This document shows positions 2,459-52,982 of a stretch of DNA of 64,000 bases, piece after piece (position 1 is the first letter of the stretch; every line of letters starts with the position of its first letter). Both the position numbers and the translations under genes were made by a program. Source of the DNA: Sulfuricurvum sp. (lineage in GTDB: Bacteria > Campylobacterota > Campylobacteria > Campylobacterales > Sulfurimonadaceae). Location: contig DYMK01000002.1 in the NCBI GenBank assembly GCA_020721585.1, forward strand, positions 1 through 64,000, written 5' to 3'. The notes below the pieces were generated by a model. That model was not told the DNA's origin. It made no database searches and was given only the letters and a program-made list of their open reading frames with translations.

Positions 2459-3187
2459 CTAATACTTTATCCGCGTCAGGTAGAGACCATTATGGGGAGC
2501 AATGGCGGTGGTGTGCCGTTTCGCCCCCTTAAGCTGTTCGATGAGCTGTTCTTTGGTCGCTTTACCCGCAGAAATGCGGAGCAAAAATCCTACCATAAGG
2601 CGAATTTGCGCCCGCAAAAAACCATTCCCCTCAAACACAAGGACAAAATACCCCTTGTGATCGTACACGTAAGCGCGATGGATAATGCGGGTAAAATGCC
2701 CCAAATCATTACCGCTTTTTTTAAACAGCTCAAAATCGTGGGTTCCCACAAAACACCCAATGGCATCAGCGATCACCTCACGATTGAGTTGGGGGATAAA
2801 GGTGATAAATTCATCTTCAAAAGGGTTACTTTTCCCCTCTTTAATCACATAGCGATAGACGCGTCGTTTGGCACTGTAGCGGGCATGAAAATCATTATTA
2901 ACCCACACAATGCGTAAAATTCGCAAAGAGGGGGGAAGGAGGAGATTGAGCATATCACATAACCGTCGTAGATCATCCCAATAGGGGGGTATATCAAGAT
3001 GCATCACCTGATGGGTGGCATGAACCCCGCGATCGGTGCGTCCTGAACCTTTGGGAATGGACTCAATTTGAAGTCGCTTCAGGGCGATGAGAAGTGTCCC
3101 AATGACCGTATTATGGGTGTTGGGTTGCTGTTGTGACCCCATAAACGCAGAGCCATTGTAACTTAATGTGATTTTGACACGACTCAA
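2459..3187 (-). CDS. truA: tRNA pseudouridine(38-40) synthase TruA
   Basis: Isomerises uridines 38-40 in the anticodon stem of tRNAs. The catalytic aspartate sits in GRTDRGVHA (around residue 50), and the C-terminal half has the usual ARY(S)AKRRVYRY and RAQIRLMVGFLL segments. The length of 242 is typical. The start is TTG at 3187, overlapping the TGA stop of the upstream permease as TTGA, so translation is probably coupled. It is the last gene of the glmU-coaBC-pilD-lpt-truA run. Confidence 0.95.
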   Translation of the reverse strand: MSRVKITLSYNGSAFMGSQQQPNTHNTVIGTLLIALKRLQIESIPKGSGRTDRGVHATHQVMHLDIPPYWDDLRRLCDMLNLLLPPSLRILRIVWVNNDFHARYSAKRRVYRYVIKEGKSNPFEDEFITFIPQLNREVIADAIGCFVGTHDFELFKKSGNDLGHFTRIIHRAYVYDHKGYFVLVFEGNGFLRAQIRLMVGFLLRISAGKATKEQLIEQLKGAKRHTTAIAPHNGLYLTRIKY

Positions 3188-4212
3188 AAGCGATGCCCCA
3201 CCAATTTTTTATAAATCCCAAAATAGGTTCCCACTAACCATATCAACGCCATCACCCAAATCGTATGGAGACCGAACCATTTTTGGATAATAATGGATCC
3301 CGAATAAAAAAAGATGATGGAGAGAAAAAGCCATAAATAGATCCACCGTTTTTGGTGCCGTGCATGGACAACTCCTAACCCAACAATCAAAAACAACGAG
3401 AGGAGGGGGAGGAGACTTAACAACGTATTGGTGGTAAAAAGATGGGTTCGATACTCCTGCTCGGTGGGAGACGTCGTCCAATATTCAAGGGTATTGGTAA
3501 AAAATATCCGATCCTCTTTGACCACATTGTTAATGGTCAGATGATCATACATCATCCGTTTAAAAACCGCATCGGTATAACTGTATCCTTCTCCTTGGTT
3601 TAATTGCAGTTGTAAATGCCCTTTGGCATTGAGCAAATTGGCACTGTGTGCCACCAGCAAAACCTCTTCTTTAAGGTCTTTATTAAACAATACAATATCC
3701 CCATACGATCGATTTACACTGTCGGTTTTGTTGATAAAAAGCATCCAATCCCCAAAATGGTGACCAAATTCCGACGCAGAGAGGTTAAACTTGGCTTGAG
3801 CTTGTTTGTGCGCTAAAAAGTTTTTGGAAACATTTTTAATGTACGGCGTGACCACGACAAAATCGACCCATAATACAATGCTCAACAACAGTGCAGGAAG
3901 TGCCAAGACCCGTACCAAAAACATAGGAGAGACCCCTAATGAAAAAACCACCACCATCTCATTGTCATTAGAGAGACGATAGAGTGCCAATGCCCCCGCG
4001 ATCACAAATGCGATGGGGAGGGTATAAAACAACAACTCCGGCAAAACGAACAAATAGAGTTTCCCCATCTCTCCAAGGGTTAAGGTAATAACCGCCGTAT
4101 AGGTCGCCAGCTTGATCATAAAAATGACCGAAGCGATGGTAAACAAGGGGATAAAGAGTGAGAAAAACAGAAGATTAATATGGAAAAAAAGATAATGACG
4201 TAATTTACCCAT
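3184..4212 (-). CDS. LptF/LptG family LPS export permease (YjgP/YjgQ)
   Basis: Inner-membrane permease of the LptBFG transporter that lifts lipopolysaccharide toward the periplasmic bridge. 342 residues with paired N-terminal hydrophobic segments (LLFFSLFIPLFTIASVIF; LFVLPELLFYTLPIAFVIAG), a third helix near 100, a large soluble middle region and three C-terminal helices, the YjgP/YjgQ layout. The frame is open upstream, but the ATG at 4212 overlaps the prepilin peptidase stop (ATGGGTAA) and gives the normal N-terminus MGKLRHYLFF. Whether it is LptF or LptG cannot be decided from this sequence alone; Campylobacterota usually have two unlinked copies. Confidence 0.88.
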   Translation of the reverse strand: MGKLRHYLFFHINLLFFSLFIPLFTIASVIFMIKLATYTAVITLTLGEMGKLYLFVLPELLFYTLPIAFVIAGALALYRLSNDNEMVVVFSLGVSPMFLVRVLALPALLLSIVLWVDFVVVTPYIKNVSKNFLAHKQAQAKFNLSASEFGHHFGDWMLFINKTDSVNRSYGDIVLFNKDLKEEVLLVAHSANLLNAKGHLQLQLNQGEGYSYTDAVFKRMMYDHLTINNVVKEDRIFFTNTLEYWTTSPTEQEYRTHLFTTNTLLSLLPLLSLFLIVGLGVVHARHQKRWIYLWLFLSIIFFYSGSIIIQKWFGLHTIWVMALIWLVGTYFGIYKKLVGHRF

Positions 4213-4954
4213 ATAATCCTGCCAAATACGCGGTGACTTGGACATCAAGCATCAACACAATCCATGTTGCCAATACCAAGAAAGGGATAAAGGGCAGTTG
4301 CAAGGAATCCTCATCTTCGGATCGGGTGAGCAATAACGCAGGCAGTGCCAACAATGCCGAAAGAAAAATCGCCACCAAAGTTAATTTTACCCCCAAAATT
4401 GCCCCCATGGTCGCAGCGATCATAATATCGGCTTCCCCCATCACCTCTTTTTTGAACAGATACGAAAGGTAAAAACGTAACAACGTAAATCCCCCGGCAA
4501 AAAGGAGAGCATTGGAGAAGTTATACCCCAATTGTCCCCATGAGGTGGCACTGATAATCGCAAAGGTCAATGCACTCAGATTAAGACTGTCGGGAACCAT
4601 TTTGTAATAAAAATCAATAAAGGAGAGGGAAAGCAACAATGTAAACGAAAGGGCAATCCCCAATGCAGAGAGATTCATCCCCAATTTCATCGCAATAAAG
4701 ACAAAAATCAACCCACTCAATGCTTCGACAATGGGGTATTGGATCGAAATAGGGGAGTGACAAAAATGGCACTTCCCCCGTAAAACCAACCATGAAACGA
4801 TGGGGATATTGTGCCACGCTTTGAGGGGGGTGTGACACATCATGCAGTGAGAAGCGGGGAAAGAGACATTTTCATCCCGTGGTGTCCGAACAATTAACAC
4901 ATTCATAAACGAGCCAATCGAGGCTCCCAAAATAAAAACAAAAAGCCATTCCAT
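4205..4954 (-). CDS. pilD: Prepilin peptidase / N-methyltransferase (A24 family)
   Basis: Membrane aspartic protease that cleaves type IV pilin or pseudopilin leaders and methylates the new N-terminus. 249 residues. An N-terminal zinc-binding region has two CxxC pairs (CMMC near 38, CHFC near 63), followed by hydrophobic helices. The two catalytic aspartates are in FIDFYYKMVPD and GEADIMIAA. ATG at 4954 is preceded by AGGGG; a GTG one codon earlier is also possible. No pilin genes are visible in the window, so its substrates lie elsewhere. Confidence 0.93.
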   Translation of the reverse strand: MEWLFVFILGASIGSFMNVLIVRTPRDENVSFPASHCMMCHTPLKAWHNIPIVSWLVLRGKCHFCHSPISIQYPIVEALSGLIFVFIAMKLGMNLSALGIALSFTLLLSLSFIDFYYKMVPDSLNLSALTFAIISATSWGQLGYNFSNALLFAGGFTLLRFYLSYLFKKEVMGEADIMIAATMGAILGVKLTLVAIFLSALLALPALLLTRSEDEDSLQLPFIPFLVLATWIVLMLDVQVTAYLAGLYG

Positions 4955-4959
4955 CACAG

Positions 4960-6240
4960 TTACCCCTTGGGTTGTAAAGTCATTACGTTATCTAAAAGCT
5001 CAAAAGAGAGGGAAAGCTTATCATTGCTTGGCAAATGATGCACTGAATCCATCGTAATGAGATCAATCGCATTGGATTCTCCCCCAAAAGGGTGTTGGGT
5101 ATCGATAAGATTGAGACATACCGCATCCACGTTTTTGGTCACCAACAATTTTTTGGCATTCTCGTGTGCGGTTTTGGGATCCATCTCCGCTTTAAAGGCA
5201 ATGGTCGTAATCCCCTCTTTGTTGCACTCTTTAAGGAGATCACGATTTTGTTTCATCGCAATATTCCAGTTTTCCCCCACTAACTCTTTTTTGAGTTTTC
5301 CCTCTTGGGGATAGAGGGGAACATAGTCACTTACCGCCGCTGCCATAAACAAATAGGGCTTTTTCTGGATAAGGGTGATGGGTTGATCGTGAATCAATGA
5401 GGGCTTAGAAAGTTTCCCTTTTTTGGCAATACGGATCGAATCGGTGAGATACTCTTCCATCTCGTGGGATCCCTCAACGCGAATGGTGTGAATCCCCAAG
5501 GGAAGATCACGCTCAAAACGGGTCGCGATCACATTCACATCCGCACCCCGTACAAACAACGCTGTAGCCAGTGAAGATGCCATCTTGCCGCTGGAACGGT
5601 TACTGATCGTACGGACATCATCAAGTCGTTCAATGGTTCCCCCTCCTGTCACAATCACCCGACGATTTTCCCAAAAAGGGTGCGTGAGAAGAATTCTCGC
5701 GGTATTCCAAAAGATTTCCATGGGTTCAGCCATCGCACCATCCCCCACCGTTTCACACGCCAATGCTTTGGTTTGGGTCGAGACAATCTCGTAATGGGCG
5801 ATGGAGAGCATCTTGAGGGAGGCTTGGATCATCGGATTATGGATCATTGTGGTATTGGCAGAGGGGGCTAGAAGTTTAACCCCGCCAAATGCCAAAGCAC
5901 ATTGGGTCAATATCGTATCGGCAATCCCATTGGCAAGTTTAGCAATCGTATTGGCCGTAGAGGGGGCAATGACCATAATATCGCACGATTGGGAGAGTTT
6001 GATGTGATTAAAATCATCTGCCCACGATTCATTGGTATCGTCTAGTACCTTGTTTTTACTCAATGCTTCAAAACTCAACGGGGCAATAAATTTTTTAGCC
6101 GAGGGGGTCATAACCACATGGACATCGGCTCCCGCTTTGGTGTACAACCGTACCAATTCCAATGCTTTATACGCCGCAATCGATCCTGTGATACCAAGGA
6201 GAATTTTTTTGCCCGCCAAGAGAGTAGGGGAGAGGGTCAT
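4960..6240 (-). CDS. coaBC: Bifunctional phosphopantothenoylcysteine decarboxylase/synthetase CoaBC
   Basis: Performs two steps of coenzyme A synthesis: CoaB couples 4'-phosphopantothenate to cysteine and CoaC decarboxylates the product with FMN. The N-terminal CoaC half has GITGSIAAYKALELVR and the substrate segment NTTMIHNPM, which differs from the common PAMNxxMW form. The CoaB half has NRSSGKMASSLA around residue 220. 426 residues. The start overlaps the glmU stop as TAATG, so the two are translationally coupled. Confidence 0.95.
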   Translation of the reverse strand: MTLSPTLLAGKKILLGITGSIAAYKALELVRLYTKAGADVHVVMTPSAKKFIAPLSFEALSKNKVLDDTNESWADDFNHIKLSQSCDIMVIAPSTANTIAKLANGIADTILTQCALAFGGVKLLAPSANTTMIHNPMIQASLKMLSIAHYEIVSTQTKALACETVGDGAMAEPMEIFWNTARILLTHPFWENRRVIVTGGGTIERLDDVRTISNRSSGKMASSLATALFVRGADVNVIATRFERDLPLGIHTIRVEGSHEMEEYLTDSIRIAKKGKLSKPSLIHDQPITLIQKKPYLFMAAAVSDYVPLYPQEGKLKKELVGENWNIAMKQNRDLLKECNKEGITTIAFKAEMDPKTAHENAKKLLVTKNVDAVCLNLIDTQHPFGGESNAIDLITMDSVHHLPSNDKLSLSFELLDNVMTLQPKG

Positions 6241-7544
6241 TACTTTCCTTTGCCAAAAAAGCGACTAAAGAATCCTTTAATCGTTTTAAGGGGGGTACGA
6301 CTAAGAATCAAAAGATCACTCTCATAACTGCCTGAAGTGACCGTAGTCCCCGCGGCAATCATCACATTATCGGCAATGGTCACAGGGGCAACCAGTTGGG
6401 TATCACTGCCGATGAACACATTTTTACCGATGATGGTGTGGTATTTTTTAATCCCATCGTAGTTACAGGTGATGGTTCCTGCCCCAATGTTCGTCCCCTC
6501 ATCGATGGTCGCATCGCCTAAATAACTCAAATGTCCCGCTTTAACGCCACTTAAAGTCGATTTTTTTACCTCAACAAAATTACCAATATGGGTACGGTCA
6601 ATGACACTGTTGGGGCGGATATGGGCAAGTGGCCCAATGTCAGAATCGCGGATAATACTGCTTTCGATCACGCTATGGGCTTTAATGTGCGCATGGGAAA
6701 TTAAGGTATCACCACACAAACGCACCCCATTTTCAATACTACATTCCCCCTCAAATTTCACCCCTTCTTCAAGATAGATGGTTTGGGGAAGCTGCATAAT
6801 GACCCCTTGATCCATCCAAAAGCGACGAAGACGATCCATCAAAATCTCTTCGGCATGGGCAAGATCGGCTTTGGAATTAACCCCTTTGAATTCCGTTTCA
6901 TGGACAAAAAGTGGGGTGATGGTCAAATCATCGTTACGAGCCAAGGCAATCACATCGGTGAGGTAATACTCCCCTTGGGCATTGTCATTGGTCAATGCAG
7001 GAAGATAGGTTTGCAACACGTGATGCTTAAACGCATACACCCCAGCATTGACACTTTGAACCTGTTTTTCCGCATACGTGGCATCTTTTTCTTCGACAAT
7101 TCGGATGACGTGATCCTTTTCAATGATCACCCGACCATAACCGCTGGGATTTTTAAGGGCAATGACCGACATCACAATATCCGCAGGATTTGCCCTAAAT
7201 TTTTCGATCGAAGCACGCTCAACCAAAGGCATATCCCCATTGAGCACCAAAACGTCCTCATACTTAGGGTGTACTCCCATCATTGCGCCCCCCGTACCGG
7301 GGAAATTTTCGGTATCTTGAACGACGAAGGTTAACCCTTCAAAATAACGTTCCATAGCGGCAATGACTTCTTCTTTTTGGTGCGCAACGACCACAATAAC
7401 ATCATCCGTCATCTCACGAGCGGCTTTGATACTGTAATAAAGCATCTCACGTCCACCAATTTCATGAAGCACTTTTGCTTTGGGTGATTTCATCCGGCTC
7501 CCTTTGCCGGCAGCCAAAATAACGATGGACAAAGCAGTAGACAT
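6240..7544 (-). CDS. glmU: Bifunctional GlmU (GlcN-1-P acetyltransferase / UDP-GlcNAc pyrophosphorylase)
   Basis: Makes UDP-N-acetylglucosamine for peptidoglycan and LPS. The N-terminal nucleotidyltransferase has LAAGKGSRMKSPKAKVL near residue 10 and VLNGDMPLV near 98. The C-terminal half is a left-handed beta-helix of hexapeptide repeats with HLSYLGDA, GAGTITCNYDG and FIGSDTQLVAP. 434 residues. TAGGAG precedes the ATG by about 6 bases. It heads a five-gene cell-envelope and cofactor operon and is divergent from trmA. Confidence 0.96.
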   Translation of the reverse strand: MSTALSIVILAAGKGSRMKSPKAKVLHEIGGREMLYYSIKAAREMTDDVIVVVAHQKEEVIAAMERYFEGLTFVVQDTENFPGTGGAMMGVHPKYEDVLVLNGDMPLVERASIEKFRANPADIVMSVIALKNPSGYGRVIIEKDHVIRIVEEKDATYAEKQVQSVNAGVYAFKHHVLQTYLPALTNDNAQGEYYLTDVIALARNDDLTITPLFVHETEFKGVNSKADLAHAEEILMDRLRRFWMDQGVIMQLPQTIYLEEGVKFEGECSIENGVRLCGDTLISHAHIKAHSVIESSIIRDSDIGPLAHIRPNSVIDRTHIGNFVEVKKSTLSGVKAGHLSYLGDATIDEGTNIGAGTITCNYDGIKKYHTIIGKNVFIGSDTQLVAPVTIADNVMIAAGTTVTSGSYESDLLILSRTPLKTIKGFFSRFFGKGK

Positions 7545-7612
7545 AACACGCTCCTAGAGGATAAATAAGGGGACGATTCTATCCAAATTAACCGATAATA
7601 CCCCTTAGGGTA

Positions 7613-7621
7613 TGGTATTAT
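7613..7621 (+). promoter_or_regulatory. Probable extended -10 promoter for trmA
   Basis: TGG directly followed by TATTAT (7616-7621), 31 bases before the trmA ATG at 7652, with GAGG as ribosome site. A clear -35 box is not visible, which is usual for Campylobacterota sigma-70 promoters with an extended -10. Confidence 0.45.
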
Positions 7622-7651
7622 CGCGCGATCGTTTATCACTGAGGAGTCGTA

Positions 7652-8770
7652 ATGGAATGTGACTATTTTGGACTGTGTGGCAGTTGCCGTTTGTATGAGA
7701 GAGGGTATGCGGGGCAATTGGCGACCAAACAACAGACTATTGAAGAACACTTTAGCCCCTATCTCAACAGTGAAAAGCTCACGGTATTTGTCTCCCCAGA
7801 ATCCCATTTTCGCTCCCGAGCCGAATTTAAAATCTATCATGATGAAGCGGGATCTTTTTATGCCATGAACCGTTTGGATAAACAAGGGGTGGTTAAAATT
7901 ACGCAGTGTTCCATCGTTCATCCTGCCATTGCTGATCTCATGACCCCCTTATTGGAAGAAATCAAACATCACGGACTGGGACATAAACTCTTTGGAATTG
8001 ACTTTTTGACCAACAGCCAAGGGGGCGTTTTGGTGAGCATGATTTACCACAAACCCTTGGATGAGACATGGAAAACCAAAGCCATGCACATAGAAGAGAG
8101 CCTCCATATCCATATTATTGGTCGCAGTCGTAAACAAAAGATTGTCCTCTCCCACGATTATGTTATTGAGACTTTGCGTATCCATGAACGAAACTATCGC
8201 TATGTCCATATCGAAAACAGTTTTACCCAACCTAATCCCAGCGTCAATGAAAAAATGGTTAGCTGGTCACTGGAGCAGTTAGAGGGAATAGGGGGGGACT
8301 TATTGGAACTGTATTGCGGTGCGGGTAATTTTACCATCCCTTTTTCCCATCACTTTGATCGGGTCTTAGCCACCGAAATATCCAAAGCCTCCATTATGGC
8401 AGCGAAACAAAACACCCATCTTAATAACGTAGAGAATATTCAGTTCATTCGATTAAGTGCCCAAGAGTTTACCCAAGCGCTGGATGGTGTCCGTACGTTT
8501 CGTCGTCTTGAGGGGTTAGAGGTGCGTAATTATCAATTAACCACCCTCTTTGTGGATCCACCCCGAAGCGGATTGGGGGAAGAACCCTGTACGTTTGCTG
8601 CACGCTTTGATCATATTTTATACATCTCGTGTAACCCTGAGACCTTATTACGCGACTTAGAGCAGTTGTCCCAAACGCACGAGGTTCAAGCTATCGCCGC
8701 ATTTGACCAATTTCCTTATACTCACCATTTGGAAATGGGGGTTAAATTGGTTCGTAAAGCGATACCTTAA
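7652..8770 (+). CDS. trmA: tRNA (uracil-5-)-methyltransferase TrmA-type
   Basis: SAM-dependent methyltransferase that makes 5-methyluridine at tRNA position 54. 372 residues, starting MECDYFGLCGSC, without a TRAM domain, which favours TrmA over RlmC/RlmD. SAM-binding LLELYCGAGNFTIP is near residue 217, DPPRSGL near 303, and the catalytic cysteine is in SCNPETL near 331. Its stop TAA overlaps the stop of the convergent rhodanese gene. Confidence 0.92.
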   Translation: MECDYFGLCGSCRLYERGYAGQLATKQQTIEEHFSPYLNSEKLTVFVSPESHFRSRAEFKIYHDEAGSFYAMNRLDKQGVVKITQCSIVHPAIADLMTPLLEEIKHHGLGHKLFGIDFLTNSQGGVLVSMIYHKPLDETWKTKAMHIEESLHIHIIGRSRKQKIVLSHDYVIETLRIHERNYRYVHIENSFTQPNPSVNEKMVSWSLEQLEGIGGDLLELYCGAGNFTIPFSHHFDRVLATEISKASIMAAKQNTHLNNVENIQFIRLSAQEFTQALDGVRTFRRLEGLEVRNYQLTTLFVDPPRSGLGEEPCTFAARFDHILYISCNPETLLRDLEQLSQTHEVQAIAAFDQFPYTHHLEMGVKLVRKAIP

Positions 8771-11497: not shown

Positions 11498-11869
11498 TTA
11501 CAAATAAAATGACTCGAAAAGGGTCAATGCCCAAATAAATGCTAACATTGCCAAAGAGAGAAATACTAACGCTGCTCCTGCATCTTTTGCCCGTTTTGCA
11601 AGCTCATTATATTCAAAGGTCACCAAATCAACTGTCCGTTCAATAGCACTGTTGATCATTTCTGCGATTACTGGAATAAAAAGGGAAATAGACAAAACAG
11701 CATGATGTTTAAAAGAGATAGGTAAATACCATGCAATGATCATACCAACAATAAATAAAAGTATTTGAAGGCGAAAAGAAGGTTCGTTTTTAAATACTTC
11801 ATTAAATCCATTTAATGCATAGCGCGTATTTTTTAACAGTGTATAATCAGGTTTATTAAGAGAAGACAT
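11498..11869 (-). CDS. dgkA: Diacylglycerol kinase DgkA
   Basis: Small integral membrane kinase that recycles diacylglycerol to phosphatidic acid. 123 residues with three hydrophobic helices and the signature EMINSAIERTVDLV followed by AKRAKDAGAALVFLS. The frame is open to 11932, but that extension runs into the dispersed repeat at 11896-11937; ATG at 11869 with AAAGGA before it gives the normal N-terminus. It lies downstream of the helicase/TPR island on the same strand, so read-through from the island into dgkA is possible. Confidence 0.93.
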   Translation of the reverse strand: MSSLNKPDYTLLKNTRYALNGFNEVFKNEPSFRLQILLFIVGMIIAWYLPISFKHHAVLSISLFIPVIAEMINSAIERTVDLVTFEYNELAKRAKDAGAALVFLSLAMLAFIWALTLFESFYL

Positions 11870-11895
11870 AGTTTTCCTTTTATAAGAATATTTTT

Positions 11896-11937
11896 CCTCG
11901 TTGGGAACGCAGACTAACATATACATTCCCAAGCTGG
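11896..11937 (+). repeat. Dispersed repeat family A, copy 2 (left flank of island)
   Basis: Bases 11896-11936 match 16878-16918 in 39 of 41 positions in the same orientation. This copy lacks the left half of the first hairpin and has a diverged second hairpin. The copies directly bracket the two-gene island. Confidence 0.85.
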
Positions 11938-11953
11938 AGAGACTGTAAAAGAA

Positions 11954-13870
11954 CTAAATTCTTTTCAGGGACTGTTCAGCAATTTTGACCATTTTCCATC
12001 CCCAGATCCCTTTTTTCCTATTGAAGTTCAATACAGCTAATCCTTCAACGTAATCGCCATCATTTATCTTACAGTGATCAATAAAAGGCCTGTCAATAAA
12101 TATATCATCCATAGTAAAACCAAGCCCATTAGAAATCCTAACCATGCTTTTAAATCGCTTCGCCGTAAAAATACTGATCTCTTTATTTGTAGGTTGACAA
12201 GCCAATACGGTGTACTGTGTTCCACGATCATGAGTGTGAGAAGCGAACTTGAGAGCAACAATATCGGCCACATTAAAATTCATACTAAAATTTTCAAAAT
12301 GAATGACCCCATCTATCTTTCTATCAACGATAAAATGAGCCAGTTTTTTATCATGATTGATATGGTCAATAATCCCAATATATTCAGAAAAAACATCCCA
12401 TTGTTGCGCTTCACTGCGTGGTTCAATTAGATAAATTTGGAAACGTCTTTCTACGTCGTATTCCCCTTTTACTTTCAGTCCGGAACCTAGTTTCATGCTT
12501 TTAAACGGGTACCTTCTTTCAGATACTGAAATTTCAGTTGGAGTTGATTGATTAGCCATAGATAGAAATATCTTTCGCTTTGGTTTATCGGGATTTTTGG
12601 TTGTTGTAAATGTATTGCCTAAAGATGCATTTAACCATGGAAGGGAATCAAACAATAAGGCTTCAGCGATAGCAGTATGTTGTTTATAAAAATCTCGATT
12701 GTCCTTGGTAGCTGTAGTGTTTTGATACCATTCAGCATTTTTATACTGCAGTTGGGTTTCCGTTAATTTCCATCCTTCCTGCTCTCTGCTTTTAATCGCT
12801 TGATCGATTTCATATTTCGCTTCACGATAAAGAGATTTTTGAATCAGCAAATCAGCGAATTTCATCCGAACATTAGCAAGAAATTTCTCGTCGCTTCTGC
12901 ATGTTAAAGCTTTCGAATAGCATCCAAACGCTTTTTCAGTATCAGTCCCTATTAACGTTTCAGCCAACAAATCCCAGGCCCAATATTCATTGAGTTTAGC
13001 TTTGGCTACGGATAAAGAGAATTCATACGCTTCACGATTTTGTCCAACACCTAAAAGCAATTTTGCTTTGTAATACGTCAGCCAAAAATTTTCAGGAAAA
13101 GTACTTATCGCGTTGTCTACATACGGAAGAATATATTTCATATCATCTTCAATATGTCGTGATAGTCCATCTTTTGCGGCATGCTGAATGACTTTTTCTG
13201 CAACACTTGGGTATGATTTGCCATTGTCGGCTTGATAAGGTTCATAATCCTCATGAGTTAGATTATTCAGATCCCAAAAACGTAAAAATGCTACGAGGTT
13301 GAATCCTTCGCTTCCTATCAATTTATCCGCATATCGTAGAAAAAGAGAATGTAATCGAGAGGGACGCTCATTTTTTAATTTAATATACTCATTCAAAAGT
13401 TGCTTTGCTTTAAATACATCGATTTTTTCTGTACCAAATATATCTTTTCCAACTCTATACAGTTCCCACCCTAACCCTTCATAAACCGAGATATCGCTAG
13501 GAAAACTTCTCAATGCAGTTCTATATGCGTTTACCGCATCATGATGTCGACCCTGTTTACTCAATGCTTTGGCATCCGCAATGATTTTTGTTTGTGGATT
13601 ACCTAGACCTTTTGCATGATTGACACTTCTCACTAGTATTTCATCATTCTGATCGATATCCAATCCATTTAACTCAGAAACAAAACTTCTAAGTGAATTA
13701 TCATCATTTCGATTGGATGCATCTTTGATTAAATCGACAAGGCAATAAGCAAGAGCTTTAATATTCCATGGATCATTTGGATTGTTACGTACCAATTCTT
13801 GACCCATTTGGTACGCTTCATATGTCTGTCCAGCTTTGCGTTTTTCAAAGACTTCTTTACTGGTAATCAT
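11954..13870 (-). CDS. TPR protein with C-terminal beta-rich nucleic-acid-binding-like region
   Basis: Unrecognised family, 638 residues. About residues 1-390 are helical and repeat-like, with TPR-type segments such as HDAVNAYRTALRSFPSD (110-127) and EKAFGCYSKAL (312-322). A linker is followed by a beta-rich region (430-630); YIGIIDHINHDKKLAHFIV and GVIHFENF (497-527) resemble cold-shock or S1-type OB folds. No signal peptide or membrane helix, so cytoplasmic. The ATG overlaps the helicase stop as TAATG, which makes coupled translation and a joint function likely. A scaffold or nucleic-acid-binding partner of the helicase is an inference only. Confidence 0.75.
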   Translation of the reverse strand: MITSKEVFEKRKAGQTYEAYQMGQELVRNNPNDPWNIKALAYCLVDLIKDASNRNDDNSLRSFVSELNGLDIDQNDEILVRSVNHAKGLGNPQTKIIADAKALSKQGRHHDAVNAYRTALRSFPSDISVYEGLGWELYRVGKDIFGTEKIDVFKAKQLLNEYIKLKNERPSRLHSLFLRYADKLIGSEGFNLVAFLRFWDLNNLTHEDYEPYQADNGKSYPSVAEKVIQHAAKDGLSRHIEDDMKYILPYVDNAISTFPENFWLTYYKAKLLLGVGQNREAYEFSLSVAKAKLNEYWAWDLLAETLIGTDTEKAFGCYSKALTCRSDEKFLANVRMKFADLLIQKSLYREAKYEIDQAIKSREQEGWKLTETQLQYKNAEWYQNTTATKDNRDFYKQHTAIAEALLFDSLPWLNASLGNTFTTTKNPDKPKRKIFLSMANQSTPTEISVSERRYPFKSMKLGSGLKVKGEYDVERRFQIYLIEPRSEAQQWDVFSEYIGIIDHINHDKKLAHFIVDRKIDGVIHFENFSMNFNVADIVALKFASHTHDRGTQYTVLACQPTNKEISIFTAKRFKSMVRISNGLGFTMDDIFIDRPFIDHCKINDGDYVEGLAVLNFNRKKGIWGWKMVKIAEQSLKRI

Positions 13871-16689
13871 TATTTCAACTCATTCGATAATATTTCATTT
13901 AACTCTCGTATAAATTCGACAGATGTGCTTTTATTCGGCTGTTCAGCAAATCGTGTAAACTGTTTCTTTCCATTGTAATAAAAATCAAATGTAGCCATGT
14001 CATTATTTTTAGTAAACAAATATTTTTCTAGCCAAGGATGAGAAGAAATTTCAACAATCTTGATATCTTGTGGCTCCAATATTTTCTTTAAACTCTCGTA
14101 GAACTCTTCCAAAAACGGTTCTGAAAAATTGAAGTTCATAGTGTCTGCCACAGTATTTACAGGTTTCACAATGATCTTTTTATGATTTAAAGATACCAGT
14201 AACGAAATAATTTTGTTTGACAACTCATCTTGATTTTGAGGAGAAATATTCGAAATTTCATATTTACCGTTGTAATAAATATTTATTCGACATCTTTCTT
14301 GCCCGTCTGTAAAGAAATAAGCTTCCTGATACTGGTTATGCTGTATGTCTACAATAGTGATATTTTCTGTTTTCACGTTCTCAGACACCGATTTCAGTAG
14401 AGTAACTAAAAAACTATTAGTAGGGCTAATTCCAAACAAGTTGCTCACATCATCTGATACTACATCACTTTCCTTGATAGTGTCATTGACATTTTCATCA
14501 AAAATACTCCCTATACGTGTCATCCCGCTTGTAGGCTTTATGTGTGGCTCATCAAACAAATACAATTTTTTAGATGTTCGTGTAATTGCAGTATAAAACC
14601 ATCTAAAGTAGTCTTTTGTTAAAACATTTTGATGAGTTTTACAATTTACAAAAACATTATTCCATTCACTACCTTGTGCTTTATGGCAAGTAAGCGCATA
14701 ACCGAATTTTATTTTTAGCGAATTAAAGTAGTCATCGCTTTTGATCGCTTGTTTAAACTCTTCCGTATTAGGGCTTAAGCCTTTCTCTCTTGCACGATTT
14801 ACGAAATCGACATACAAAGCAACCGTTTCAAGTCTATTGATGTCACGACTTTTTAATTTATACTTATTTATTTCATTTAGAAAATATGTGTCATTATAAA
14901 CCAAGCCCCTATATAAAATATTTTCAAATATCAAACATTCAAAAAAGTAAGACTTACCATCAATATTTTTAAACCCAATTTCTACTCTTCTAAACCATAG
15001 TGGTACTTTTGTGGTTATAGTGAGTTCTTCATTAATTTTTTCTCTGACAAATACTTCTCTTTTGATAATATTATCATCGACTTTTCTGATGAGTCCAAAA
15101 TCGCCATTATAAATAAAAATTGCTTGGTTGCCATTATTGGCTACTGCCATCACTTTGTCACCAGCTGTAATATATTCTTGATTTGGGAAAAAATGCTTCC
15201 TAACGTGTGAATTATATTCATCAACAACAGCATTTGAATGAGCAATAATTATGGATTCTCCATTAATTTTATATCCACAAGAATCAAGATATTTACCCAT
15301 TAACTCTTCACGCTCTACATGTTGAGTGTCTTCAAAGTTTAAATTAATATCAAGTTGATTAAAAGTATTTCTTCTAATCGATTCCCTTATAGTAAGTGAA
15401 TTTTCAACAATCCCACTATCAACGCTCTGTCTCATAATTTCTGTTAATTCGTATGAGTTACATTTCAGATTAAATTCTTTTTCAAGATAAACCAAATTCA
15501 AAGCTGGAGAAAAATTCATTCCAATCGGTGGTAGCTGTGCCGTGTCTCCAATAAAAATGATCTTTTTGTCATGATCATTGTGGTCAATATGTATATATTT
15601 CATTAGATCAGAAAGTAATCTGCCAGAGCCAAACCTAAAAAATTCTCCCTCTTGAACAATATCACTAACCATTGATGCTTCATCTATAATATATACAGTA
15701 TTTCCATCATGTGTATTATCATTTAAATCAAAGTAAAACTTAAATGTTTCAGTACCATCAATATTTTCAACTTTATATTCTTTTAAATCTTTGTAAGAAT
15801 AAATAGATTTGTGGATTGTAAATGCTTCATTTTTAGTTTTTTCTTTTATGACTTTAGCAGCTTTACCAGTGGGAGCGGCTAAGATAAATTTTCTTCCGAT
15901 TGAAGTCAAATATTCTGTAAACCCTTTTGTAATAAATGTTTTTCCAGTTCCTGCATAACCTTTAAGTAAAAATACATGACTGTCTGCATTTTTTAAAAAA
16001 TCATCTAGCTCTTTAATAAGCTCTTGTTGCCCACTATTTAATTGATAATCAGCATAAATTTCTTCTAATGTTATTCTTTCGTTTATCTCTTCATCATTTA
16101 AATTCAATGCATTTGCAACTTCTTTATTTACAGTTTCAAACCATTGTATATTTTCATTTGTATTATTAATGGGTTCAATTATCTGCCGATTGTTGTCTTG
16201 TTGAGCTTGTATGACATCATTAAGCTCCATGATTGTTTGTTCAAGTACATCAATTTTGTTCTTGTCAGTTTCTATGGGTAATATAAAATCATATTGATAT
16301 TCTATTTCAGGATTTGTTTTGACGGAATAAAACCAGCAAGCAATAGAATAAGTTTCTTTTAGCAACCATTCTATGTCACTCTGTAAAATTTCATTACGAT
16401 GGATTGCCTTATTGGCTTTAATCCTTATTGCATGAAATTTTTTTACTATTTGTTCATCAATAATATCTTGAAATTTTTGATTTCTTAATGCTGAAAATAA
16501 ATCCCACTGTTTATCATATTCAAGATTTAACTCTCTATATAAAGTTGGTACTAAAAACTCTATAAAGCATCGAAGCTTTATAATTGAACTTTGTGGATCA
16601 GAATATAAATATTGCTCTGAAAATGCACCAAAATCTGCCAATTGAGGCCATTTTTCTCTTAAAAATTCAAAATTTATAGATTTTAGCAC
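13870..16689 (-). CDS. SF1 (RecD/Pif1-like) helicase with DUF4145-like N-terminus
   Basis: 939 residues. Residues 1-125 resemble the DUF4145-type domain found at the N-terminus of HsdR and some defence helicases (SSIIKLRCFIEFLVPTLY; IRIKANKAIHRNE near 89-100). The helicase core follows: Walker A GYAGTGKT at 244-251, Walker B YIIDEAS at 333-339, motif III FIGDTAQLPPIG at 379-390, motif V/VI ALTCHKAQGSEW near 665 and YTAITRTSKK near 699. Residues 759-835 and 859-935 are two related copies of an unknown module. The start is GTG with AAAGGTGAT before it. Composition is clearly more AT-rich than the neighbours, suggesting transfer. DNA-dependent ATPase activity is well supported; the biological role is not known, defence being the likeliest. 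Confidence 0.85.
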   Translation of the reverse strand: MLKSINFEFLREKWPQLADFGAFSEQYLYSDPQSSIIKLRCFIEFLVPTLYRELNLEYDKQWDLFSALRNQKFQDIIDEQIVKKFHAIRIKANKAIHRNEILQSDIEWLLKETYSIACWFYSVKTNPEIEYQYDFILPIETDKNKIDVLEQTIMELNDVIQAQQDNNRQIIEPINNTNENIQWFETVNKEVANALNLNDEEINERITLEEIYADYQLNSGQQELIKELDDFLKNADSHVFLLKGYAGTGKTFITKGFTEYLTSIGRKFILAAPTGKAAKVIKEKTKNEAFTIHKSIYSYKDLKEYKVENIDGTETFKFYFDLNDNTHDGNTVYIIDEASMVSDIVQEGEFFRFGSGRLLSDLMKYIHIDHNDHDKKIIFIGDTAQLPPIGMNFSPALNLVYLEKEFNLKCNSYELTEIMRQSVDSGIVENSLTIRESIRRNTFNQLDINLNFEDTQHVEREELMGKYLDSCGYKINGESIIIAHSNAVVDEYNSHVRKHFFPNQEYITAGDKVMAVANNGNQAIFIYNGDFGLIRKVDDNIIKREVFVREKINEELTITTKVPLWFRRVEIGFKNIDGKSYFFECLIFENILYRGLVYNDTYFLNEINKYKLKSRDINRLETVALYVDFVNRAREKGLSPNTEEFKQAIKSDDYFNSLKIKFGYALTCHKAQGSEWNNVFVNCKTHQNVLTKDYFRWFYTAITRTSKKLYLFDEPHIKPTSGMTRIGSIFDENVNDTIKESDVVSDDVSNLFGISPTNSFLVTLLKSVSENVKTENITIVDIQHNQYQEAYFFTDGQERCRINIYYNGKYEISNISPQNQDELSNKIISLLVSLNHKKIIVKPVNTVADTMNFNFSEPFLEEFYESLKKILEPQDIKIVEISSHPWLEKYLFTKNNDMATFDFYYNGKKQFTRFAEQPNKSTSVEFIRELNEILSNELK

Positions 16690-16721
16690 TATATATCACC
16701 TTTACTTTTTCACGCAACATC

Positions 16722-16727
16722 ATTATA
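16722..16727 (-). promoter_or_regulatory. Probable -10 box for the helicase/TPR operon
   Basis: TATAAT on the minus strand, 33 bases before the GTG start of the helicase gene. No clear -35 box is seen. It would place the island under its own promoter. Confidence 0.4.
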
Positions 16728-16767
16728 TATTTATGTATTACAATTTGTTCTGAATATTGGTATCCAT

Positions 16768-16866
16768 TACTTAAAAATTCCACCCAACAAATCATCCATC
16801 TCTTGGTGCAGTTGTTGAACATCCAATTGCATTGTTTTGACGGTCAATGTATTTGAGATATTCCTT
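16768..16866 (-). pseudogene. Possible 3' remnant of a gene, cut by repeat element
   Basis: On the minus strand a frame is open from the edge of the repeat to a TAA at 16768, reading NISNTLTVKTMQLDVQQ then LHQEMDDLLGGIFK. The amphipathic end looks like the C-terminus of a protein, but the upstream part is replaced by repeat family A copy 3. It is too short to identify. Confidence 0.3.
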
Positions 16867-16929
16867 GTTCCCAACGTCCTCGTTAGGAACGCAGACTAAC
16901 ATATACACTCCCAAGCTGAAGCTTGGAAG
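16867..16929 (+). repeat. Dispersed repeat family A, copy 3 (right flank of island)
   Basis: The most complete copy: hairpin 1 GTTCCCAACG-TCCT-CGTTAGGAAC (one mismatch), linker GCAGACTAACATATACAC, hairpin 2 CCAAGCT-GA-AGCTTGG. Bases 16878-16918 match 11896-11936 at 39 of 41 positions. The end lies 20 bases from the psd stop codon. Confidence 0.85.
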
Positions 16930-16949
16930 CAAGACAAAGTGCCGTGTGA

Positions 16950-17768
16950 TTAGCGCAACGTCCCGATCGTTTGACCAAAACGGACACTCTCCCCTACTTC
17001 CAAGCCCATAGTGATCATATCCTCTTCAAAGAGCATCACGATGGTCGAACCCATCTGAAAGCACCCAAAATCATCCCCTTTTTTGAGTTTCACATCGCAA
17101 TAGGTATAGCATTGCGGTGTTCGTACATCACTATTGGTTTGGATCGAAGGTTCAAAGGAGACTTCCATTTTTCCAACGTTCAACGCCCCTACTAAGATCA
17201 TAAAGAACCGTTTGTTATTGTCGGCTAAACACTCGATGACCACCCGCTCATTTTCGATAAAAAGGTCAACTTTACGTTTGAGGGTGGGGATATTGACGGG
17301 ATACAATTTTCCAGGGATATGGACAGCGCGGACTATTTGTGTATTCAAGGGGAGATGATAACGGTGATAGTCGCGCGGGGAGAGGTACAAATTGATAAAA
17401 TGACCGGTGCTAAAGTGTGCTTTGATCGAGGGGAGAATGTGATCCCCTAGCAACGCATCAATGTTGTAGCTCATCCCTTTAATCTGAAGCGCGCGTGCCT
17501 CCTGAATACGCCCTACTTCGGTAATCAACGCATCGCAGGGGCTGATCATCGCTTGGGGATCGGAGGAAAATACTCTGGGTTTCATGAGCTTACGGGTAAA
17601 GAGAGCATTGAGGGTTAGGTAGGATGCGGGGGGATTAAAATCACCCATATCCAATCCCATGAGCTTCACGTAGCTTTGGTTGATAATTTTTTGAAAAAAT
17701 GGGGAATGCGCTTTGGAGGCGAATCTCCCAAACGCTTGGGAAAGGGTAGAAGTAACGTGGTGTGTCAT
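16950..17768 (-). CDS. psd: Phosphatidylserine decarboxylase proenzyme
   Basis: Converts phosphatidylserine to phosphatidylethanolamine at the membrane. 272 residues. The autocleavage site that creates the pyruvoyl group is in FQMGSTIVMLF near residue 240 (GST, with Met before it instead of the common Leu or Gly). HFSTGHFINLYLSPRDYHRYH near 117-137 is the conserved core. It starts 3 bases after the truD stop, in the operon thiL-truD-psd. Confidence 0.95.
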   Translation of the reverse strand: MTHHVTSTLSQAFGRFASKAHSPFFQKIINQSYVKLMGLDMGDFNPPASYLTLNALFTRKLMKPRVFSSDPQAMISPCDALITEVGRIQEARALQIKGMSYNIDALLGDHILPSIKAHFSTGHFINLYLSPRDYHRYHLPLNTQIVRAVHIPGKLYPVNIPTLKRKVDLFIENERVVIECLADNNKRFFMILVGALNVGKMEVSFEPSIQTNSDVRTPQCYTYCDVKLKKGDDFGCFQMGSTIVMLFEEDMITMGLEVGESVRFGQTIGTLR

Positions 17769-34493: not shown

Positions 34494-35626
34494 CGGATGA
34501 TAAACTCGCTTCCTTGATTTTTAGCGGAACGGATCTCCAGCGTGAGATTGTACCTCTTGCATACTCGAACTACAATTTCCATCCCGATTCCCAGCCCCGT
34601 TTCAAACGATTCTCCTCTCCAGTAACGCGTATGAATTTTTTGTTTTTCTGCTTCGGACAAACCGATTCCGCTGTCTTTAATGCTGAAGTATTCGGAAGTT
34701 AGGGTGAGGAGAATGAACCCTTTGGGACCATTGTATTTGATGGCATTGGTGAGGAGATTGTTCAGAAGTCGATGAAAATCATCGGCATAAACGGTCAGTT
34801 TTATGTCGCTTAAATCGGTCGTAACTGAGAGTTTTTTATACTCGATGAGGGTTTCGAGCAAGGCTAGCTGTTCATGGATTAACTCTTTGATACTTTCAGG
34901 CTTTGGAATGGGCGGATGGGATCGAAAGTTGAGGTAGGCCAGATCCTCATAAAGTCCTGTAAGCGTTTTTGCACCGATGGTAATTCGCTGGACAAAACGG
35001 TGAAGGGAGGGTTCGGTAATCTTCTCCTCTAAAATTCGAGCATTGGAGAGAATAGCGGCAATAGGGGTGTTGAGATCATGGGTTGCGTGTTTGATAAAGG
35101 TATCGAGACTCTCGAAGGCATTTCGAGCGGGCTTGAAGGCAATGCGGCTGAGTACAAATCCAACCAATGCCATAATGAGAAAAAGGGGGACGAAAAGGGC
35201 AGATAGGCTGATAATGATCGGGAACGTTTCTATTTTTTTGGAGACGACTATGGAAGCAACCCCCAAGAAATAGAGGGAGAGATCGTGATGCACATACAGC
35301 GTTGTCTTGTCGAGCCACGTAACCTCATTCCAATGAGGAACGCTTGAGTGTTGCGTGGCAATGGGCAAATGATCGATGTCGTAGAGGGAGATTTGGTACT
35401 CTTTGGTATCAATGATGATTTCTGCCAAGTAGTGGGCTTGATTGTTTTTAAGCTGCTCTTCGAGATGGGAGAGATATTGGGTCATTTTTCTTGTTTCATC
35501 GGTAATAAGGCGCTCTTTTTCGAGGGTATAGGAAAAAAATGCCAAGACCAAAAAAAGTAAAAAAAGCGACCCCAAATAGAGTAGGCGAAACTGCAAGAGT
35601 GCCGTTTTTAAAGAAGATTCATGCAA
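34469..35626 (-). CDS. Sensor histidine kinase
   Basis: Membrane sensor kinase of a two-component system. 385 residues from TTG 35626, which overlaps the regulator stop as TTGCATGA; the longer frame inside the regulator gene is unlikely. Transmembrane helices near 15-35 and 135-160 flank a periplasmic sensor of about 95 residues. The phosphorylated histidine is in THDLNTPIAAI near 183; the ATPase has NNLLTNAIKYNG, KDSGIGLS and GLGIGMEIV. The signal is unknown; the linked cytochrome, exporter and DUF1104-like peptide suggest a redox, metal or envelope-stress cue. Confidence 0.9.
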   Translation of the reverse strand: MHESSLKTALLQFRLLYLGSLFLLFLVLAFFSYTLEKERLITDETRKMTQYLSHLEEQLKNNQAHYLAEIIIDTKEYQISLYDIDHLPIATQHSSVPHWNEVTWLDKTTLYVHHDLSLYFLGVASIVVSKKIETFPIIISLSALFVPLFLIMALVGFVLSRIAFKPARNAFESLDTFIKHATHDLNTPIAAILSNARILEEKITEPSLHRFVQRITIGAKTLTGLYEDLAYLNFRSHPPIPKPESIKELIHEQLALLETLIEYKKLSVTTDLSDIKLTVYADDFHRLLNNLLTNAIKYNGPKGFILLTLTSEYFSIKDSGIGLSEAEKQKIHTRYWRGESFETGLGIGMEIVVRVCKRYNLTLEIRSAKNQGSEFIIRWPKSLIA

Positions 35627-36281
35627 GTCGGTACCCAAAAGATCGAATGGTTTCAATCGTGAGATAGGGAACTCTTTTGCGAAGATTTTTGATGTGGGCA
35701 CGCAGGGCATTAAATCCTAAATCGTTTCCGTAGCCCCAGAGTTCAGTGAAAAAATCATCATACGTGACGATTTGCCCCCGTTTGGCAATTAACAGTTTTA
35801 ATGCTTCAAGCTCTTTGGAGTGAAGAAGGATGCCTTGATGATCGGCATCGAGAATTTGCTCTTTTAGGGGATCAAAAAAGTAGTATTCGTTTAAGGAAAT
35901 CAGTGTAGATGAGGCATGAAAAAAAGAGCGGCGAATGAGGTTTTTAAGGCGTGCGATAAGCTCTGTGGGCTCAAAGGGTTTTTTGAGATAATCATCCCCG
36001 CCGCTCTCAAATCCAAGAGCAACCGAGTCAGCTGAATTTTGGGAGGTTAGAAAAAGTATCGGGGTTCCTATCCCGCGTAAACGAAGGCTTCTTGCCAAAT
36101 CAAATCCACACCCATCGGGGAGATTGATATCTAAAATAATAGCATCAAAACGTTGTTCAAAAAAGGCATCTTCGGCATCTTTGAGGAAAAAATAAGGGGA
36201 AACGTCAAACTTTTCATCCCCTAAAATATCGCACAGTGTATCATTGAGAATCAAGTCATCTTCAAGCAATGCAACTTTCAC
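35619..36281 (-). CDS. OmpR/PhoB-family response regulator
   Basis: 220 residues. The receiver has acidic pocket LLEDD, phosphorylated Asp51 in IILDINLPDG and the conserved lysine in LKKPFEP. The C-terminal winged helix has LHSKELEALKLLI and IRSFGYRLA. It is divergent from the DUF1104-like gene and the exporter operon, which it very likely controls through the repeats at 36330-36370. Confidence 0.93.
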   Translation of the reverse strand: MKVALLEDDLILNDTLCDILGDEKFDVSPYFFLKDAEDAFFEQRFDAIILDINLPDGCGFDLARSLRLRGIGTPILFLTSQNSADSVALGFESGGDDYLKKPFEPTELIARLKNLIRRSFFHASSTLISLNEYYFFDPLKEQILDADHQGILLHSKELEALKLLIAKRGQIVTYDDFFTELWGYGNDLGFNALRAHIKNLRKRVPYLTIETIRSFGYRLA

Positions 36282-36329
36282 GTTCTATCCTTCCTTTGGT
36301 ATACTATTTTTTTGAAACTGTAGCATAAA

Positions 36330-36370
36330 TTCATATTCGTTTCGTATTTATACCGTACAATTTTTGTATT
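36330..36370 (+). promoter_or_regulatory. Promoter with candidate OmpR-type tandem sites
   Basis: TTCATATT (36330-36337), TTCGTATT (36341-36348) and TTTGTATT (36363-36370) are spaced 11 and 22 bases apart, one and two helical turns, as OmpR/PhoB regulators bind. A -10 TACAAT sits at 36356-36361, before the DUF1104-like gene. Assignment to the adjacent regulator is inferred from position. Confidence 0.4.
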
Positions 36371-36388
36371 CATTAAGAAGGGAATATC

Positions 36389-36601
36389 ATGACAAAATGG
36401 ATTGTAATCTTATTGTTCACTACAGGAATAGCTTTTGCGAGCGATTACAGTGGTAAAAGTTTGGAAGAGATGAAAGCCTTGCGCCCGACGTTATCTTTTT
36501 GGGAACTACCTGCATTTAAAGTAGAGATGCAAAAACGGATGAAAAATATGACTCCCCAAGAGCGTCAAAAACTTCAAGATGAGATGAAGCAAAGCAAGTA
36601 A
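36389..36601 (+). CDS. Small exported DUF1104-like protein
   Basis: 70 residues: signal peptide (IVILLFTTGIAFA), then a helical segment with SLEEMKALRP and MKNMTPQERQKLQDEM. The MTPQERQKL end resembles DUF1104 proteins of Campylobacterota and the LTxxQ style of CpxP/Spy periplasmic chaperones. It is the first gene after the regulated promoter and is followed 27 bases later by the exporter genes, so it may act as a periplasmic accessory or feedback protein. Confidence 0.75.
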   Translation: MTKWIVILLFTTGIAFASDYSGKSLEEMKALRPTLSFWELPAFKVEMQKRMKNMTPQERQKLQDEMKQSK

Positions 36602-36628
36602 TAAAATTATTTTATGAATAGGAACTGC

Positions 36629-37906
36629 ATGCGATTAAACACCATTTTTTTCTTTTTTTACCTCAGTGCGAGCGGCAGTGCTTTAACGCTTGAAGAAGCG
36701 ATTGAAAAAACATTAAAAACGCACCCAAATGGGCAAATTGCTTCTTTGCAATATGAAAGTGCCATCAAAACGACCAAGAGTGCTGATGCAGCACGGTATC
36801 CTCGCATTGACGCAAATGCCAATTATTTCCCAACCAAAACGTTTGTCATGCCAACCAATGGAGTGTTTTCCACTAAACAAGGAAATAGTTTGCATGGTGA
36901 TATGAGCGGATCGTATTCCTTGTGGGATTTTGGACGTTCGCGCGACCGATATACTTGGGCTTTGCGTGCGCAAGAGGGTGCAGGTTCGATGGAAAAATCG
37001 ACTCAAAATGAACTCATTGAGAACGTTTGGAATAGGTATTATAGTCTTGCCCTTACCACTTCATTGATTGATACGGCAGAGGCTTCGGTAAAATTTTATG
37101 AAGGGCAGTTCAAACAGGCTTTCAATATGCGTAAAAGCGGATTAAAAACCCAAGCGGATGAGTTGCGCTTTAGAGCATCTCTTTTGGAAGCGCAAGATCG
37201 TGCCTTACGAGCCAAAAGTGATTACGATAAGGCATCTTTGTCGTTGGGGATTTTGATAGGGAGTGATGAGCTTGTAGTCGTTAATCCATCCAGTTTAGAT
37301 CAGCGTTGCGAAATGCTCTCCCTTCAAAATATCTCTTTGGAAACTCTGCGACAAAAATTACGCGACAATAATCCTCAGCTAAAAGCTTTACGTTTGTCTA
37401 TTGACGCGCTCAAAGCTTTATCGGATGCGGCAAATAATGAAAAATATGGAACTGTAGCACTGGTAGGCTCGTATGGCTATGATAATTCTCTCTCGGCGTA
37501 TGACAGCTATCAAGCAGGTGTTGTGGGGACAATACCGCTGTATGATGGGGGGAAACTCTCCGCAGAAGCTCAAAAAAGCCGTATTGCCTATACGATAGCC
37601 CAAAAAGAGTTTGAAAATACTGAGCGTTTATTATGGCAAGAAGTGTATGGTGCGTATCGTGATTTCAAGCGTGCGGATGAGTCGATAACATCCAAAGAGA
37701 GTGTCATCGAAGCAACAACCCAATCATTACACCTGATTGCAGGACGATATGCGCAAGGGTTAGCAACCTATCTTGATGCGTTAGAGTCTCAAAGTACCTT
37801 AGAAAATGCAAAATCTGAGTTAGCCCAAGTCAAATATCAAAAAATAAGTGCGTATGCACACGTCCAAAAACTACTCAATCAAGGTGAAAATGATGATAAA
37901 AAATAA
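36629..37906 (+). CDS. TolC-family outer membrane efflux protein
   Basis: Outer-membrane channel for the tripartite exporter. 425 residues with a signal peptide, two similar halves ([19 protein letters not shown] at the start; SLETLRQKLRDNNPQLKAL in the middle), and long coiled-coil segments. ATG 36629 is preferred over 36614 since AGGA lies just before it and the signal peptide is intact. A truncated copy of the first 40 codons lies at 33.8 kb. The stop overlaps the adaptor start. Confidence 0.9.
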   Translation: MRLNTIFFFFYLSASGSALTLEEAIEKTLKTHPNGQIASLQYESAIKTTKSADAARYPRIDANANYFPTKTFVMPTNGVFSTKQGNSLHGDMSGSYSLWDFGRSRDRYTWALRAQEGAGSMEKSTQNELIENVWNRYYSLALTTSLIDTAEASVKFYEGQFKQAFNMRKSGLKTQADELRFRASLLEAQDRALRAKSDYDKASLSLGILIGSDELVVVNPSSLDQRCEMLSLQNISLETLRQKLRDNNPQLKALRLSIDALKALSDAANNEKYGTVALVGSYGYDNSLSAYDSYQAGVVGTIPLYDGGKLSAEAQKSRIAYTIAQKEFENTERLLWQEVYGAYRDFKRADESITSKESVIEATTQSLHLIAGRYAQGLATYLDALESQSTLENAKSELAQVKYQKISAYAHVQKLLNQGENDDKK

Positions 37907-52354: not shown

Positions 52355-52982
52355 GATTGAGCGAAATGAAACTCCCAAAGTTGAGCACTATTCAACTTCA
52401 CTTGTCCAAGAGTCATTAAAAAAAGATTTTTTCAGAAAGTGTTATATCTGCGAAGAGGTGACACGTCATTTTGAAGTGGATCATTTTTACCCAAAAAACT
52501 ATTATCCTCATCTCGTGAATGATTACAAAAACCTTTTTTATTGTTGTCAAAAATGCAATAAAATAAAGCCAAAAGTGATTAATACTCACTCTGAAAATGA
52601 GATTTTAAATTGTTGTGAAATTGATCCTTCGGAGTATATTAAGCTTAAATTGAATATCAATGCGTGTAAGGTTGATGTGACACAAATTCATACCAATGAT
52701 ATACTTGAATATCAGATCAAAGAGACCATCAAGCTTTTAAATCGAGTGTATAATGGTGAAAATTCCCAAAGCACTTCGTGTGCAGATTTGAAAGATGATA
52801 TAAAAGAGAAGATGGAAGAGTTTGGCAAAAAACTTGATAAGTATCAAACAACAAAATTGAAAAATGCTATCGTGGAAGAAATTAAAAAAGAATTGACTAT
52901 TGAGTCTTCGTATGTGACATTTAAACGATGGATTATTAGAGATAATCCAAAACTAAACGCAACGTTTGGTAACTATTTTTAG
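52347..52982 (+). CDS. HNH endonuclease (PtuB-like)
   Basis: 211 residues from ATG 52347, which overlaps the ATPase stop (ATGATTAA). The nuclease core is near the N-terminus: zinc pair Cys32/Cys35 (CYIC), EVDHFYPK with Asp45-His46, KNLFYCCQKCNKIKPK with Asn62, Cys67/Cys70 and Asn71. The rest is helical with no other motif. The TIGR02646/PtuB family has this arrangement. The stop TAG is part of the AGGAGG ribosome site of the next gene, so the cassette ends exactly at the ancestral operon junction. Confidence 0.82.
   Translation: MIKIERNETPKVEHYSTSLVQESLKKDFFRKCYICEEVTRHFEVDHFYPKNYYPHLVNDYKNLFYCCQKCNKIKPKVINTHSENEILNCCEIDPSEYIKLKLNINACKVDVTQIHTNDILEYQIKETIKLLNRVYNGENSQSTSCADLKDDIKEKMEEFGKKLDKYQTTKLKNAIVEEIKKELTIESSYVTFKRWIIRDNPKLNATFGNYF

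Follow-up and report, generated by a model that had tools for sequence, protein, structure and literature searches.

A helicase and TPR/OB gene pair in a Sulfuricurvum genome is a new example of the candidate conflict-system class TOTE/PDC-M16

The window analysed here is a stretch of 64,000 nucleotides from Sulfuricurvum sp. (GenBank assembly GCA_020721585.1, contig DYMK01000002.1, positions 1 to 64,000). Within it, two overlapping genes that we call A and B lie between the housekeeping genes dgkA and psd, and a pair of similar repeats closely brackets them. The features of the locus are as follows.

11498-11866: dgkA, flanking the pair
11895-11939, plus strand: truncated copy of a REP-like element, running from hairpin loop to hairpin loop (by comparison with dispersed copies)
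11954-13870, minus strand: gene B, 638 aa (ORF list, Pfam, PADLOC, predicted structure)
13868-13872, minus strand: TAATG stop/start overlap of genes A and B, with one shared base (ORF coordinates)
13870-16689, minus strand: gene A, 939 aa, GTG start (ORF list, profile matches, predicted structure)
13888-14121 and 14188-14415, minus strand: two tandem TBP-TOTE domains of gene A (PF22721; 79.5 and 75.1 bits)
14557-16041, minus strand: SF1B helicase core of gene A, residues about 217-711 (Pfam, motifs, fold match)
16357-16617, minus strand: DUF4145 / HEPN-clan helical domain of gene A, residues 25-111 (Pfam PF13643, E=1.4e-9)
16722-16727, minus strand: TATAAT hexamer that may be a -10 box, 33 bp ahead of the GTG of gene A (sequence reading)
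16862-16940, plus strand: complete REP-like element of two hairpins (fold z -3.2)
16950-17768: psd, flanking the pair

Both open reading frames are intact where a preliminary description, made from the sequence alone, had placed them, and the overlap is as it was described. The pair is also AT-rich, as claimed: GC content is 0.30 for gene A and 0.36 for gene B (GC3 0.23 and 0.28), compared with 0.44 (sd 0.035; GC3 0.45, sd 0.066) across the 45 other ORFs of the window. The TATAAT hexamer proposed as the operon's own -10 box is present, but it has no matching -35 element, and a promoter scan, in which promoter-like sites were no commoner than in shuffled sequence, did not list it.

From N- to C-terminus, protein A comprises DUF4145, a coiled coil, an SF1B helicase of the Dda/RecD2 type and two TBP-TOTE domains. 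Pfam assigns the helicase core to the AAA_30/UvrD_C_2 type, which is RecD/Dda-like, and scores the C-terminal TBP-TOTE region at 140 bits, far above its cut-off. Walker A reads GYAGTGKT, with K250, and Walker B is DEAS at residues 336-339; in an alignment, these two motifs are kept in 14 homologues along with GDxAQLPP, HKAQG and TAITR. An AlphaFold2 model of moderate confidence (pLDDT 70.5, pTM 0.51) shows an N-terminal helical bundle, followed by a low-confidence coiled coil, the helicase core and, in the TBP-TOTE region, two helix-four-strand-helix units. Fold searches, whose matches span residues 204-718 only and hence neither the TBP-like nor the DUF4145 parts, align the helicase with T4 Dda over 407 residues (Z 28.2, rmsd 4.2) and with RecD2 over 346 residues (Z 26.2, rmsd 3.3). 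Conserved motifs and fold thus both place gene A in the SF1B Dda/RecD-type superfamily. Its PHROGs matches are to Dda-like and exonuclease V helicase families. Its score against the RecD2 equivalog of NCBIfam (153.8 bits) is far below the curated cut-off of 500. What distinguishes it from Dda and RecD2 is the addition of DUF4145, the coiled coil and the TBP domains, together with the almost constant presence of a TPR/OB partner gene behind it.

Protein B carries TPR_14 above the Pfam cut-off, DUF7017 at residues 263-400 (160 bits) and two OB-fold domains of the S1/CSD-TOTE type (PF22708 and PF22707), S1CSD-TOTE-1 at residues 491-554 (69 bits) and S1CSD-TOTE-2 at residues 571-630 (63 bits), both likewise above cut-off. 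The predicted structure (pLDDT 84.4) consists of a TPR solenoid over residues 1-407 and then three beta-barrels, of which the first, at about 413-484, has no Pfam match and the other two are S1CSD-TOTE-1 and -2. The results of a fold search were dominated by the TPR part, so that the barrels were hardly probed, and a PHROGs search with gene B returned no match. The preliminary reading of the domains as DUF4145, SF1 helicase and TPR/OB was correct as far as it went, but it missed the two TBP-like domains at the C-terminus of the helicase.

The pair had also been put forward as an undescribed system. This does not hold, because both proteins contain TOTE-specific Pfam domains and both have models in PADLOC. 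In PADLOC-DB 2.0.0 (2023), gene A matches PDC-M16A with 1110 bits and gene B matches PDC-M16B with 800 bits, in each case over the full length, so that the pair was already catalogued; the two matches fall in adjacent genes, and we see no difference from PDC-M16. TOTE stands for "TPR, OB, TBP, Effector" conflict systems, published in 2022 by Aravind, Iyer and Burroughs, as cited in PMC12458937. With TOTE as that paper presents it, the pair shares TPR, two TOTE-type S1/CSD (OB) domains, TBP-TOTE domains and the two-gene operon; it differs in that its TBP domains are part of an SF1B helicase that also bears DUF4145. We therefore class the pair as a new member of TOTE/PDC-M16, a known class of candidates, rather than as an undescribed system. 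The class has been catalogued apparently without experimental test: PDC systems are candidates from a guilt-by-embedding screen and mostly lack experimental validation (PMC12988326), and our literature search, which covered subscription papers poorly, found no phage-resistance experiment or other test of this pair or subtype. As early as 2013, DUF4145 had been tabulated as fused to a helicase, there named 'UvrD Helicase (endoV alpha subunit)' (PMC3710099).

Two neighbouring classes were considered and rejected. TALON, a TOTE-like system of the YprA family, has TPR-CSD and TBP components in common with the pair but combines a YprA-like helicase with a NERD nuclease; the helicase here is of the AAA_30/UvrD_C_2 type, Dda/RecD2-like and SF1B, and Pfam finds no NERD match in either protein. 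Nor is gene A the HsdR of a Type I restriction-modification system, since its helicase belongs to SF1 whereas that of HsdR belongs to SF2; inspection of the ORF list for the whole window, the surroundings of the pair included, showed no HsdM or HsdS partner gene.

Combining this class assignment with the distribution described below, we regard the locus as probably a two-gene conflict cassette of the TOTE type (PDC-M16) that was acquired horizontally and is most likely directed against phages or mobile elements. The domains suggest how such a cassette might work. We infer that A and B act as a complex, in which protein B, with its TPR solenoid and three OB/CSD-like barrels, would bind single-stranded nucleic acid and serve as scaffold, while protein A would clamp duplex DNA or DNA junctions through its two TBP-like domains in tandem. 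Its motor, of the Dda/RecD2 type, would then translocate 5'-3' and unwind or strip replication or recombination intermediates of the invader, with DUF4145 probably acting as an exchangeable effector or effector-docking module. The earlier proposal of an SF1 helicase motor working with a TPR/OB scaffold that binds nucleic acid is supported, as is a defence-type setting.

Which part of the pair might be the effector? The helicase motifs are intact and DUF4145 is present, with its motif of the form Rx7H; the ORF list shows no further nuclease gene beside the pair. Across the family of gene A, motor and scaffold stay constant while the N-terminal module is exchangeable. DUF4145 holds this position in gene A and in most proteobacterial relatives. 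In the helicase of one congener (G012) a NERD domain is fused in its place, and the helicases of Brevundimonas and Hymenobacter have no N-terminal module; immediately upstream of the former lies a gene for a DnaQ-like exonuclease, and upstream of the latter a YhcG PDDEXK gene. Some further relatives have neither an N-terminal module nor an obvious nuclease. A FastTree phylogeny nests the Brevundimonas protein within the members that have DUF4145, as sister to Microvirga (support 0.97), so that the module has probably been lost there. Because relatives carry NERD at this position, or nothing together with an adjacent DnaQ-like or YhcG nuclease gene, DUF4145 is probably an exchangeable effector or docks one, and the variation would resemble an effector slot. 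A tentative extension, possible but doubtful, is that we are dealing with a defence system that has no classical nuclease and instead relies on TBP-guided helicase remodelling of invader DNA, with motor and scaffold fixed and the N-terminal slot taken by DUF4145, NERD or a stand-alone DnaQ or YhcG.

A variant of the conflict-cassette reading would make DUF4145 an active HEPN RNase, so that sensing of an invader by the helicase, TBP and OB parts leads to RNA cleavage, dormancy and abortive infection. DUF4145 does belong to the HEPN superfamily, and for this family the catalytic motif is reported to be mostly conserved (PMC3710099), and in gene A the motif is RIKANKAIH at residues 89-97, with R89, N93 and H97 invariant in 11 distinct aligned members of the DUF4145 type. 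However, it departs from the motif of catalytic HEPN RNases, Rx4-6H with a polar residue after R: the spacing is R89-x7-H97, and the residue after R is I, L, K, M, N or H across homologues, with no conserved polar residue. The motif test therefore leaves RNase activity unsupported. In addition, several relatives do without DUF4145, and the same N-terminal module also heads HsdR-like enzymes (PRK11448 match, 89.8 bits). We regard this variant as rather unlikely.

The pair is a horizontally mobile accessory cassette, as had been suspected. Gene A is missing from 39 of 40 congeneric species, the exception being G012, whose NERD-type relative is 24% identical; other weak matches in congeners are to single domains. 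Within the phylum, 3 of 397 genomes contain TBP-TOTE, that of the window being one of them. Plasmid records with a match number 148 for gene A, of which 62 reach 80% coverage or more, and 71 for gene B. The closest plasmid relative, on pSulSP of Sulfurospirillum sp. 'SP' (34921-39680), is 73% (A) and 74% (B) identical, with the same gene order and an overlap in both cases; next to it lie recombinase genes and a toxin-antitoxin pair of the RelE/Phd type, and it lacks the psd and dgkA flanks of the window. Full-length A, DUF4145 included, is also present on four phage-like contigs of IMG/VR, with B directly downstream; these were found in an alignment scan, whereas a single-sequence scan of viral contigs gave no match. 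In E. coli, 42 of 5,426 complete genomes have the pair at 80% coverage or more.

The association between the two genes is close. In all 23 loci inspected that have a helicase of this type (a sample that includes several near-identical copies), a B-like TPR gene was found directly after the helicase, usually with overlapping stop and start codons. In one of these loci (L107) the B gene is frameshifted, and in another (L111) the gene in question is a TPR-CSD protein weakly like M16B. At that locus (G157:C16, 6695-11240) the TOTE-type helicase and TPR-CSD gene are directly followed by a Drt2-like reverse transcriptase, which appears split into two ORFs. A plasmid of Runella sp. SP2 (2463-8077) has a B-type TPR/OB gene adjacent to those for a CRISPR-associated primase-polymerase, Cas2 and Cas1, and no TOTE helicase is next to it. 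On the chromosome of E. coli strain 300081 the pair and stbA lie between a Type I restriction-modification hsdR and mcrBC, the locus being flanked by IS elements. More broadly, neighbours of relatives include Type I restriction-modification at one locus and cas1-cas2 with a CARF protein at another.

Such a distribution might also be expected if the pair were a fitness module of plasmids or prophages, concerned with replication, maintenance or exclusion of rivals, in which motor and ssDNA-binding partner aid the element's own DNA rather than defend the cell against phages. In keeping with this, the matches in 62 plasmid records extend over 80% or more of gene A, relatives on T4SS plasmids lie beside conjugation or transfer genes, the copies in enterobacteria come after stbA and a small gene, and Dda-like helicases are carried by phages (PHROGs). 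Nevertheless, chromosomal copies exist outside any plasmid context, namely in the window and between hsdR and mcrBC in E. coli; a sporadic spread over many phyla and exchangeable nuclease modules are typical of defence systems; and PADLOC places the pair among defence candidates. We therefore judge a fitness module to be unlikely, and continue to favour a conflict cassette.

It remains to consider how the cassette sits in this genome. Its neighbours in the window are housekeeping genes rather than a defence island, which is a point against the conflict reading, and dgkA and psd flank it as had been described, in a pairing that is not conserved. In 29 congeneric loci psd follows truD with no dgkA nearby, and in most of these a 200-aa gene then follows; a search of the window's genome with a 70-residue piece of that gene, run without a positive control, gave no match. 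The congeners' dgkA adjoins a saccharopine-dehydrogenase-like gene, and its neighbour on the other side is kept in nearly all loci. Since the congeners have truD-psd without dgkA, and dgkA with a neighbour of its own, psd-dgkA is a rearranged junction in the window. As it is not the ancestral junction in any congener examined, the ancestral one could not be reconstructed and no empty site can be demonstrated. The comparison of this interval among relatives yielded no congener with psd beside dgkA.

The near-identical direct repeats (claimed as 41 bp with 39 matches) are real: they span 45 nt at 11895-11939 and 16877-16921 and are 93% identical. They belong to a dispersed REP-like element of two hairpins and a conserved linker, which occurs in complete, half and loop-to-loop copies; at least five further copies exist in the genome away from TOTE genes, and the element was noted on contigs C17, C57, C15 and C100. 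The repeats were accordingly rejected as att sites. Next to the truncated copy, at 11940-11960, the window reads TGTAAAAGAACT, which runs into the region of the gene B stop codon and resembles TGTGAAAGAACT, found beside repeat fragments on contig C100; the two may belong to another short repeat that is likewise dispersed. Genes for transposases of the Y1_Tnp type occur in the same genome, at C88 and C22.

That the island is a discrete mobile element ending at these repeats seems improbable. They closely bracket a pair of low GC content, but as a dispersed REP-like element with hairpins, one copy of which (at 11895) is truncated, they are weak evidence of boundaries, as the preliminary description had itself warned. 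Moreover, two copies elsewhere, 0.8 kb from each other, enclose a pair of short ORFs unrelated to the cassette, and the psd-dgkA junction is not seen in congeners. Lastly, it is very improbable that this is an ordinary accessory helicase pair for DNA repair or recombination, RecD2-like and with no role in conflict: its 154-bit RecD2 match and Dda/RecD2-like fold would fit, but the score is far below the equivalog cut-off, TOTE domains are present, nearly all congeners lack the helicase, and a separate, weakly similar open frame of 749 aa lies elsewhere in the genome (contig C44).

The locus is of interest as a well-preserved and compact representative of a predicted class of bacterial immunity, one that spreads on plasmids, including clinical plasmids of Enterobacteriaceae, and on phage-like contigs. 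The clean exchange of the N-terminal module offers a direct route to asking which part is the effector, and the union of TBP-like domains and a helicase in one protein of a bacterial conflict system bears on the role of the TBP fold outside archaea and eukaryotes.

A Septu-like pair lies in the same window, 34 kb from the helicase and TPR genes: a PtuA-type ATPase at 51194-52354 (plus strand, 337 bits) and a PtuB-type gene at 52299-52982 (plus strand, 125 bits), with a GC content of 0.31, directly after an ORF that reads as hemL-like (glutamate-1-semialdehyde aminotransferase).
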